64,000 nt of DNA from Rubidibacter lacunae KORDI 51-2 (GTDB lineage: Bacteria > Cyanobacteriota > Cyanobacteriia > Cyanobacteriales > Rubidibacteraceae): NCBI RefSeq assembly GCF_000473895.1, contig NZ_ASSJ01000017.1, positions 62,001 to 126,000 on the forward strand, written 5' to 3'. The translations under genes were made by a program, and so were the position numbers. Positions within the stretch are counted from its first letter, which is position 1, and each line of letters starts with the position of its first letter. The notes under the pieces are model-generated. The model worked only from the letters and a program-made list of their open reading frames with translations. It searched no databases and was not told the origin of the DNA. This document shows positions 22,184 through 58,108 of this stretch, piece by piece.

Positions 22184-23899
22184 CTAGAACAAGAAATAGC
22201 GCTGCGCCATTGGGAGTTCGCTGGCTGGCTCGCAGGCGAGCAGTTCGCCATTGGCGCGGACTTCGTAGGTTTCCGGATCGACTTCGACGTGTGGCATGGA
22301 GTCGTTGAGTTTCATCTGTGCCTTGCCGATGTTGCGCGTGTTCGCTACAGCTACGGCCGGCGTCTGGAGTTCGATTTGTTCGGGAATGCCCGCCGCGATT
22401 GCCGCTTGCGAAACGAAAGTCAACGAGGTGGCCGCGATCGCGCCGCCGAAGCTGCCGAACATCGGGCGCATGTGCACCGGCTGCGGCGTCGGGATGCTGG
22501 CGTTGGGGTCGCCCATTTGCGCCCAGGCGATCGCACCGCCTTTGATGACAAGCTCCGGTTTGATACCAAAGAAGGCCGGTTTCCAGAGACAAAGGTCCGC
22601 TAGCTTGCCTGCTTCGATGGAGCCGACGCGATCGGCGATACCGTGGGCGATCGCCGGGTTGATGGTGTATTTGGCGACGTAGCGCTTGGCGCGGGCGTTG
22701 TCGTTGCGTTCGGAGTCTTCGGGAAGCTGACCGCGCTGGACCTTCATTTTGTGGGCGGTCTGCCAGGTGCGGATAACGACTTCGCCGACGCGGCCCATGG
22801 CCTGGGAATCGGAGGCGATCATGCTGAACGCACCCAGATCGTGGAGGATGTCTTCGGCGGCAATGGTTTCGCGGCGGATGCGGGATTCGGCAAAGGCGAC
22901 GTCTTCGGGTATGCCGCGATCGAGGTGATGGCACACCATCAACATGTCTAAGTGTTCTTCGAGGGTGTTGGTGGTGTAGGGGCGCGTGGGGTTGGTCGAG
23001 GAGGGTAAAACGTTGGCTTCGCCGCATACTTTGATGATGTCGGGGGCATGGCCGCCGCCCGCACCTTCGGTGTGATAGGTGTGAATCGTGCGATTCTTGA
23101 AGGCGGCGATCGTGGTTTCGACGAAGCCTGCTTCGTTGAGCGTGTCGGTGTGGATAGCAACCTGCACGTCGAATTCGTCGGCGACATTCAAGCACGTGTC
23201 GATCGCCGCTGGGGTCGTGCCCCAGTCTTCGTGGAGCTTTAAGCCCATTGCACCCGCGCGCACTTGCTCGATAAGTCCTTGGGGCTGGCTGCTGTTGCCT
23301 TTGCCGAGGAAACCCAGGTTCATCGGGAAGGCGTCGGCGGCTTGTAACATCCGCCAAATGTTCCACGCGCCGGGCGTGCAGGTGGTGGCGTTGGTGCCCG
23401 TGGCCGGACCCGTGCCGCCGCCGATCATCGTGGTGATGCCCGAGGCGATCGCGGTTTCAATTTGCTGGGGGCAGATGAAGTGGATGTGGGCGTCGATGCC
23501 GCCGGCCGTGAGGATTGAGCCTTCGCCGGCGATCGCTTCGGTTGCCGGACCGATGATGATATCGACGTTGTCTTGAATGTAAGGATTGCCTGCTTTGCCG
23601 ATTTTGTGAATCTTGCCGTCTTTGACTCCGATGTCGGCTTTGACGATGCCCCACCAGTCGAGGATCAAGGCGTTGGTGATAACCAAGTCGACGGCACCGT
23701 CCGCGCGGGAAATCGGCGACTGTCCCATGCCATCGCGAATCACCTTACCGCCTCCGAACTTCACCTCGTCGCCGTAGGTGGTAAAGTCGCGCTCGACCTC
23801 AATAAATAGCTCGGTATCGGCCAAGCGCAGGCGATCGCCGGTGGTGGGTCCGTAGGTTTCAGCGTAGGCGCGACGGTCGATGCGATAACTCACGGGCAC
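22184..23899 (-). CDS. ureC: Urease alpha subunit
   Basis: The catalytic nickel subunit of urease, which hydrolyses urea to ammonia and CO2 in the cytoplasm. The 571-residue product is full length and has the motifs [14 protein letters not shown] (first His pair), [10 protein letters not shown] with the lysine that is carbamylated to bridge the two nickel ions, and [20 protein letters not shown] with the flap His. It follows no ureA or ureB: an IS256-type relic lies directly upstream. In cyanobacteria urease genes are often scattered, so a lone ureC need not be inactive. The urea from ureohydrolases could feed it. Confidence 0.97.
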
Positions 23900-45510: not shown

Positions 45511-46818
45511 ATCGCGCTGTTCTCAAATTCTCTCGCATGCTCCAGATAACGCCCGGCATGGAACGTCTGGAGACGGGAATCGCAACCGCCCTGGGAGCGC
45601 AGTTGCCGGTGTTGCTGCGGAGGCTGCAACTTTATAGGTGAGATCGTGCCTTAACCATTACTGCGGTGTCGCGGGCTGGGCTCGAGCGTTCTTTCTCTAG
45701 CCAGATTCTAGCGCGATTTTCTGAGGTCGCGGGCGGCGAATCCCCCATGCGGACAGGATCTCAAGCAAGGTCTCGTTGCCCTATTGAAAATCTGAGAAAT
45801 TCTGAAAATTTATTGGTACTGATATTGCCAGCGTTTTTTCGCGCGCGATCGCAGAATAGACCAACACCTTGGAGCGAGCATTCGCCAAAGGGATCGCGCG
45901 CGAACGGTCACCAAGCTGGCGCGCATTTGCGATCCTGCAGCAATTTGGAGTGAAGAGAAGCTGAGTGGGGAGGAGTGCGGAAATTACGGTGAATTTACGT
46001 TCGATTCGACATTGCCAGCATCGGAAAGGCGGCGCAATCTAGATTCACTAAGTTCGATGGGGTTCCGGCATACTCTTTTTCGCTCTCACTCCTCGAGCAC
46101 AGGCGCGCGTCCGAGTGACGCCCAGGGTGGCACTGGCTTTTGATAATTCTGCGCTGGCGAGCTTCTTGTTGGAGAACCTTGCCATTCCATTTGATACCAA
46201 TTTGCAGAATGCCTAGGACAGATTGTGTAAGCGAGCCCCGGGAGTAAAAGTTCCCGAGCTGCCATTTGTCGCAGCACTTCCTAGAGTTGGTATGAGTCAA
46301 TCCAGTTCGCCCGCCGCCGCCATTGGGAAAATCCCATCTCTTCACAATGACGCTGTGCAGATTTGATTGGTCAGCTCGCAACTAGTTGAGCGCATCCCCG
46401 ATTGGCAAGTATCTGCCGCCTGCTTGTATAAGCTGCCCTTTCTGAGTGCTGCAGCAAGTTCCCGTGCAGGCGCGCGCCCAACGCGGGAGTATGTCCAAAG
46501 GCAACTATTCAGATGTCTCACTAGGTCTCAGTGGCGTCGCGATCGAGTCACCCTTGCACTTAGGATGGCAATGCACTTTTAACTAACGGATGCTTTTCTT
46601 TAGGAAGCGGTGCCTATAGCGTTCCACGGTCCTTTCGCGAATTTCAACGTCTGTGACTCTTCTGATGAGAGTTTCCCCTCTCACCAGAGTTTCCTCGGGT
46701 CCTTGCCGCTACTTCTAGCATCCGTTACTCAAATTTATCAACTTGGTACGAGTGGCTCTGGAGCTGTGTATGCTTCCCCAGCTCATGCATTCCTCGTAAT
46801 TCTCATTAGGCGATCGCC
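45511..46818. other. 1.3-kb gene-poor region containing a MITE-like element
   Basis: No gene recognised apart from the 100-bp repeat element at 46194-46293. A 128-codon minus-strand frame (45995-46381) runs through the element and shows no recognisable domain. Confidence 0.45.
46194..46293 (-). repeat. 100-bp MITE-like element, copy 1
   Basis: It begins ATACCAA and ends TTGGTAT, with further imperfect pairing inward so that the whole can fold into a long hairpin. Read on the minus strand it aligns without gaps over all 100 bases with 57396-57495, with about 22 differences by my count. Outside the boundaries the two places are unrelated. It encodes nothing. The ends with TA just outside CCAA/TTGG would fit an IS630/Tc1-type target. 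Confidence 0.85.
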
Positions 46819-57265: not shown

Positions 57266-58108
57266 ATTACGTCATCAGTTCGCGCCAGATGCCACCTGAA
57301 GGAGTTTCAGCACTAGTGGTTTTGGTAGCTAAGAGCACCCGAAACCCGACTCCGGCAGACAATTTGGCTCTGTACGATGACAGGTTCTACATGTGATACC
57401 AACTCTAGGAAGTTCCGCGACAGATGGCAGATTGGGATCCTTGACTCCTAGGAATTGTTTGCCTCATCTGTCGTAGGAATTGTGAAAATTGGTATGACTT
57501 GCCAAAGAATTATAAAGACTTGAGGGTTTAAAAACAGATAAAGCGCAATCAGATGGATGGCAATAGGGCAAAAGCAGGGAACGTCTAGACAACTTTCAGA
57601 AAGGAAGTCACGATGCGCTCGCGTTTCAGGCTTAAAGTTTTCAAACCAGCCCCTCACAACAAGTCCGGGGAATGACTCAGAATAACCAAACCCCTCCAAG
57701 CTAATAAGGTGGGGCTTTTGGTATCCGGTTAGGATAATATACCCACGGATTTTTTCATATGCTATGTTTCCGAACTTCTAGAGTCCTAAGTTCTAAGCTA
57801 GAGAATCAAAAAAATTAGGGTTGCATTACCCTGTTTGATAGGTGTTCAGGCTCTTTCGAGAGTTCAAAACCATTGTGGATCTAACCCCACTGGCTGATTG
57901 CTTCAGTATCCTTAAGCTTCGTCGTTGGCACAAGGTGGTAGAGGCGGAGATGAACCGCTCGCTCAATAAAATTTTTGAGACGCTAGCGAGCCTCAGACGT
58001 TAGGGCTGTCGGAGGCTTTCTCGTAGGGGCGATCGCGTCGGTCGGCATCTTCTGGAAGCGCTTTGGACGTGTCACCCGTCTCATCCGGCCGCGTCCGATG
58101 GTAGGCCC
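57266..58108. other. Gene-poor region with the second MITE copy
   Basis: About 840 bases without a recognised gene; AT-richer than the neighbours between 57480 and 57860. It holds the 100-bp element at 57396-57495. Confidence 0.45.
57396..57495 (+). repeat. 100-bp MITE-like element, copy 2
   Basis: Same element as 46194-46293, in the opposite orientation. Both ends carry ATACCAA/TTGGTAT. The arms pair over most of their length (for instance CGACAGATG in the left arm and CATCTGTCG in the right), so the single strand would form a long hairpin. It lies 130 bases after the phosphopantetheinyl transferase gene. Confidence 0.85.

Follow-up and report, generated by a model that had tools for sequence, protein, structure and literature searches.

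Two hairpin repeats of Rubidibacter lacunae KORDI 51-2 as probable copies of a MITE family with a TNA target-site duplication

Introduction

Gene-less mini-transposons (MITEs) are described in a review as apparently universal in bacteria, with cyanobacterial cases cited, and the named bacterial examples include Nezha (from cyanobacteria), Chunjie and Correia (PMC10969869). The element analyzed here resembles bacterial MITEs in general in that it is short and non-coding, has inverted repeats and a target duplication, and is present in many copies. It appears to differ from them in its own sequence and ends and in the TNA duplication.

A 3-bp TNA duplication is best known from IS5/IS1031 and PIF/Harbinger, and the ends of the IS5 family are of the GA/GG- type, which TACCAA does not resemble. 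Published work gives TWA and C-TNA-G as the targets of eukaryotic PIF/Harbinger relatives, and a study of eukaryotic PHIS elements gives ANT, not TNA, as the duplication of bacterial IS5. The Rubidibacter family shares the 3-bp TNA (TWA) duplication with the IS5 superfamily/PIF-Harbinger and with Tourist-like MITEs, and in this sense it operates as they do without being classed as a member; it is unlike the IS5 superfamily/PIF-Harbinger in its TACCAA ends, and no transposase between such ends was found in the draft assembly. No paper among the literature matches listed was recognized as describing it.

Results

The two copies in the window

The window, which is the whole 64,000-nucleotide stretch of DNA analyzed here, contains two stretches of 100 bases each (46194-46293 and 57396-57495), both of which start with ATACCAA and end with TTGGTAT on direct reading. 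They lie in opposite orientation and align with 0 gaps and exactly 22 differences, so that the pair reported by the first-pass annotation, with about 22 differences, is confirmed. The element proper is 98 bp, TACCAA...TTGGTA, and the outermost A and T are part of the target duplication. Once the ends are set in this way, both copies are flanked by TGA/TGA. The features are as follows.

57397..57494, + strand: MITE copy 1 (probable), 98 bp, TACCAACT...AATTGGTA
57394..57396, no strand: left target-site duplication TGA of copy 1
57495..57497, no strand: right target-site duplication TGA of copy 1
57397..57426, + strand: left terminal inverted repeat of copy 1, about 30 bp, imperfect (sequence; consensus arms compared)
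57465..57494, + strand: right terminal inverted repeat of copy 1, about 30 bp, imperfect (sequence; consensus arms compared)
46195..46292, - strand: MITE copy 2 (probable), 98 bp, in the 10-copy lineage (row L034)
46192..46194, no strand: left target-site duplication TGA (as read on the + strand) of copy 2
46293..46295, no strand: right target-site duplication TGA (as read on the + strand) of copy 2

The terminal inverted repeats of the element are imperfect over about 30 bp (TACCAAYT...CGACAGATG), and both arms match one end pattern. In a nucleotide search of the own genome, the second window copy was matched by the first with E=6.5e-17, and the likeness of the two is not due to chance; the nearest relative of copy 1 is the copy at G000:C31:32483-32582, which is 96% identical.

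Copy number, age and placement in the genome

The draft genome of R. lacunae KORDI 51-2 consists of 4,153,658 bases in 99 contigs, and its genome report states that 27 short contigs were omitted (PMC3910548). The nucleotide search of this genome listed 40 matches, and with a sequence-only profile made from an alignment of 37 copies, 59 rows passed E<=1 and 57 passed E<=0.01. Because three loci with internal extra sequence are represented by two rows each, the latter correspond to about 54 places in the 4.15-Mb genome, some of which are halves or decayed copies. Further copies, for which a whole-genome search had been proposed, are thus clearly present, and the earlier expectation of many copies is borne out.

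The copies are dispersed, and their flanks differ between sites, as had been stated for the two in the window. With a cut at 10% distance, the 37 aligned copies fall into lineages of 10, 3 and 2 copies and 22 single copies; the closest pair is 2% apart, and the mean pairwise distance is 24%. The copies thus arose in bursts, and nothing points to very recent movement, which fits a lost enzyme.

Using a crude codon-usage gene caller, 49 of the 52 places examined were found to be intergenic. Of the remaining three, two extend over a predicted gene boundary, and one is contained entirely in a 671-codon frame (counted from its first possible start), close to the beginning of that frame. The same gene caller assigned 53% of the window as coding and 47% as non-coding; the intergenic contrast is therefore approximate, because at 53% coding the caller misses genes. 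The element is short and contains no transposase gene. Open frames that overlap it vary in length and position between copies, which agrees with the claim that no gene explains the repeat, and the frames across rejoined insertion sites are non-coding in appearance (by eye).

Target duplication and insertion sites

For the flank analysis, 55 places were extended to their expected ends (the weak row C43:13984 was omitted), and the eight that lack an end were set aside, leaving 47 copies with both ends. A perfect 3-bp TNA repeat is present in 24 of these 47; we ascribe its absence from the other 23 to decay and to the fixed-length calling of ends. On one side, T occurs at position -3 and A at -1, each in 41 copies; on the other, T occupies +1 in 40 copies and A occupies +3 in 41. 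The free middle base N is equal on both sides in 33/47, compared with 12 expected from composition. A symmetric bias is also seen at a distance of four bases from N on each side (A in 26/47 and T in 23/47). Farther out, A is found in 12 copies at -8 and 15 at -9, and T in 8 at +8 and 8 at +9. Such a flank pattern would be the trace expected of a dimeric transposase that duplicates TNA.

An older, decayed copy carries another in its right arm, at G000:C4:49775-49874, and the inserted copy is bordered by TAA at each end. When the inner copy and one TAA are removed, the older arm reads through (by eye). Within this one strain, the nested site is the best available empty site.

Longer versions of about 200-314 bp also occur in the own genome. 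Two of them (L090 and L092) are explained by other small elements inside, a further one (L091) is 266 bp long, and two additional small repeat families interrupt other copies.

Other small elements alongside

A second family of mini-elements, about 214 bp long and with the ends TAGGGCTTGCTGAAAAAG, was observed with 103 end matches in the own genome (control, 3); it is found at G000:C76:107264-107577 (L090), at G000:C79:127733 (L094) and elsewhere in that genome. Two of its copies lie inside first-family copies with 6-bp duplications (by eye), and its end sequence also occurs close to a PF01609 transposase fragment at C86 (L066). A third small element, whose ends resemble GGCACCTCG, is present at G000:C66:12329 (L093), at G000:C15:30609-30810 (L092) and in L068 near 345, that is, inside two first-family copies and once near a transposase locus.

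Hairpin folding and covariation

The predicted RNA folds of both window copies, on both strands, have z values of -3.1 to -4.6 relative to shuffles, and the imperfect pairing of the arms noted earlier is thereby confirmed. The two copies nearest the founders of two lineages, L019 and L047, fold at -37.8 and -36.5 kcal/mol in spite of 10 and 9 changed positions, respectively, compared with -37.5 kcal/mol for the consensus and about -28 kcal/mol for the null. When the 37 copies are compared with the consensus randomly mutated by the same number of changes, they are slightly more stable (mean z of -0.68). The most stable folds come mostly from the 10-copy lineage and the 57396 pair. Among the old single copies, several fall below the null in stability.

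For the named consensus structure, paired cells amount to 82.9% against 81.7% in shuffles (2/500 as high), pair types to 40 against 34.8 (10/500 as high), and pairs with two-sided changes to 10 against 6.5 (26/500), with 9-16 when the structure is slid; the covariation score is 0.095 against 0.084 in shuffles (16/500) and at most 0.090 in six slid versions, where the relatedness of the copies alone can exceed the shuffles. RNAalifold gave no consensus pair among the 37 aligned copies, and Rfam gave no match at the gathering score at either window copy. These values hint weakly that the hairpin may act as a conserved RNA, and the folding statistics are compatible with founders that kept good ends.

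Elsewhere in the window, positions 23452-23735 match the Rfam family 5_ureB_sRNA with 129 bits, perhaps because this family overlaps conserved ureB coding sequence.

Search for the transposase

The own genome contains eight matches to PF01609 and two to PF13359, one of the latter at a PF01609 locus. When the eight PF01609 loci were compared with the 30-bp element ends, the best agreement was 18/30, and two loci have the outer 8 bases without the rest; at the two PF13359 loci, a comparison of short motifs gave no match. The combined end pattern (<=3 mismatches) gave 66 matches in the own genome, of which 65 lie inside MITE copies and one (C20:148) adjoins a copy. An autonomous element with TACCAA ends, the partner that the first-pass annotation proposed to look for, was thus not found in the 99-contig draft by PF01609, PF13359 or the end pattern. 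The own ends of the transposase loci may be cut off, because several of these loci lie at contig ends. Of the two absences that were considered to count against the MITE reading, that of an element with matching ends holds so far, whereas that of further copies is clearly false.

One locus, L062 (G000:C66:64406-64885), is an IS5-type element with a PF01609 match and the ends GAGGCC. Its TAA/TAA flanks suggest that an enzyme duplicating TNA has been active in this genome. The sister element L063 (G000:C77:7721-8200) is 97% identical, has TCA/TAA flanks and carries two in-frame stops; the ends of L062 and L063 are GAGGCCATTTGAAAAG. With respect to the features of the IS5 superfamily, the TNA (TWA) duplication is present in the Rubidibacter family, and ends shared with an IS5-type element were not found at the loci compared.

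Distribution and look-alikes in other cyanobacteria

The Rubidibacter element was found by nucleotide search in none of 39 other relatives and in none of the 385 other genomes of the phylum sample (best two candidates per genome scored); it was not matched in plasmids, nor its end pattern in viral contigs. A profile search of 59 other genomes with stricter filters gave one weak match, in G012 (E=0.0016). Among the genomes searched, the family is therefore confined to its own genome, apart from this weak match.

The combined end pattern (<=2 mismatches) was matched in four of 386 genomes, namely the own genome, G017, G045 and G391. The G391 match (L110) is without a second end and is likely due to chance, because the reversed control pattern matched two genomes (G222 and G283). 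G017 and G045 belong to one genus, and their matches fall within a hairpin element, about 100-105 bp long, that is flanked by TAA/TAA and TTA/TTA.

A related end pattern, TACCA[AT]TTTTC, has 13-60 matches in each of five genomes of the family to which G017 and G045 belong (G017, G045, G242, G331 and G159, with G331 taken from loci among the matches listed), compared with 0-5 for the controls. TNA lies beside 16 of 17 ends (<=3 mismatches) in the scanned stretches of G017 and G045, a count from which two further ends (L156, TACCC) were dropped by the start filter, and the same TNA is found at both ends in, for example, L107, L108, L168, L169 and L172. In G159, three of the nine fetched ends belong to elements of 121-124 bp with TTA on both sides. 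These elements resemble the Rubidibacter family in their size (mostly about 100-125 bp), their TACCA ends and their TNA flanks; they differ from it in their inner sequence, which is unrelated (GTAGGGGCGAAC... in the G017/G045 copies). The left end of a copy picked by the pattern, and so selected for likeness, is identical to the Rubidibacter end at 23/30 positions, and that of another copy at 16-18/30. Judged from these end sequences, common descent of the Rubidibacter and TACCA[AT]TTTTC ends is plausible.

The look-alike families are also without a visible autonomous partner. The fetched single-ended matches in G017, G045, G159 and G242 are MITEs, lone ends, or MITEs that other elements have interrupted. 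Plasmid searches with two G045-type elements gave no match, as did a phage search with one of the two, and the TACCATTTTTC pattern had one viral-contig match. A 1,558-bp stretch in G045, which encodes a 443-aa transposase and has TACCA ends flanked by TTA, was considered as the autonomous parent. It was rejected, because it is a MITE whose loop holds an IS4-family element; the latter has ends of its own (CACTGGTGTCAAGTTAAGG) and a 10-bp duplication. The transposase is assigned to the IS4 family by NF033592 and has no solved relative.

This IS4-family element is present twice in G045, at C1:2914127-2915684 (L150) and C1:2809500-2814500 (L160), at the same loop position of TACCA-type hairpins, in opposite orientation and with the 10-bp duplication ACCCTTGTGG; it apparently targets the hairpin loop in this genome. 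At G017:C1:1722031 (L162), a 154-aa frame comes after a TACCA-type end and resembles, by eye, an IS1-type transposase.

Discussion

The two hairpins are very probably two of about 54 copies of a gene-less mini-transposon family with a TNA duplication, and the proposal of a non-autonomous MITE family is borne out by the copy number, the inverted repeats and this duplication. As to the enzyme and the chemistry of movement, we infer that a DDE transposase supplied in trans would bind both ends of the element, which would be moved as double-stranded DNA and inserted at a TNA target through cuts staggered by 3 bp, and that repair would then copy TNA onto both sides. The hairpin itself is most likely a consequence of the element being short and having two inverted ends.

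The first-pass annotation had suggested that the family might be mobilized by an IS630/Tc1-type transposase. Short hairpin elements with TA beside their ends are typical of IS630/Tc1, which duplicates TA, and the end of the present element does read TA-CCAA. However, the repeated unit is TNA, not TA, as seen in the agreement of the free middle base, and the look-alikes in another genus also lie beside TNA at all but one of the filtered ends. Since agreement of N would not result from a TA duplication inside TNATA, mobilization by an IS630/Tc1-mariner transposase is not supported, and we regard it as very improbable. The TNA duplication bears equally on palindromes of the REP/BIME type moved by a RAYT (IS200/IS605-like) single-strand transposase. 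The present copies are likewise palindromic, intergenic and numerous, but IS200/IS605-like enzymes leave no target duplication, and classical REPs are shorter than 98 bp with conserved ends, so that this origin is the least probable of those weighed here. On the side of a REP origin, 4,240 predicted REPs are given for KORDI 51-2 in a palindrome survey of 2025, which also gives 857 predicted terminators; the portions of the survey consulted contain no description of the 98-bp element (PMC12306157).

A family of small structured RNAs or 3'-UTR hairpins, maintained by selection and multiplied by duplication, would account for the strong predicted hairpin in both window copies, the mostly intergenic placement, the near-consensus folding energies of L019 and L047, and the pair counts and covariation score that exceed most shuffles and, for the score, all six slid versions. 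Against this stand the target duplications at sites with differing flanks, the small mean stability gain over mutated consensus sequences together with the old single copies that fold worse than the null, the two-sided changes that are as frequent when the structure is slid, and the negative results of RNAalifold and Rfam; selection on an RNA is accordingly a very unlikely origin of the family. With regard to the partner of the MITE family, an IS5-superfamily (PIF/Harbinger-like) transposase is the most likely mover, an assignment that we hold with even confidence, and the enzyme may now be lost from the genome or lie in sequence missing from the draft assembly. Its main rival, a substantial possibility short of an even chance, is a DDE insertion sequence that does not belong to the IS5 superfamily but likewise duplicates 3 bp: the TACCA ends are unlike the GA/GG of IS5, and no IS5-type partner was found in the draft, but the same searches of the draft (PF01609, PF13359 and the end pattern) found no element of this other kind either. 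It is conceivable, though doubtful, that the Rubidibacter and TACCA[AT]TTTTC families form one wide TNA-targeting class, whose autonomous parent would be an insertion sequence of a kind not yet described. Such a parent may be rare and move between lineages by transfer, with the mini-elements persisting in many genomes.

Conclusions

The Rubidibacter repeat is a new family of a well-known kind, whose mover enzyme was not found in the draft assembly. Two unannotated hairpins can be explained as products of transposition, and their exact ends and target rule are now available to annotate about 54 places in the genome. Should a single enzyme serve the whole wider TACCA/TNA class, its discovery would account for many interspersed hairpins in several cyanobacteria.
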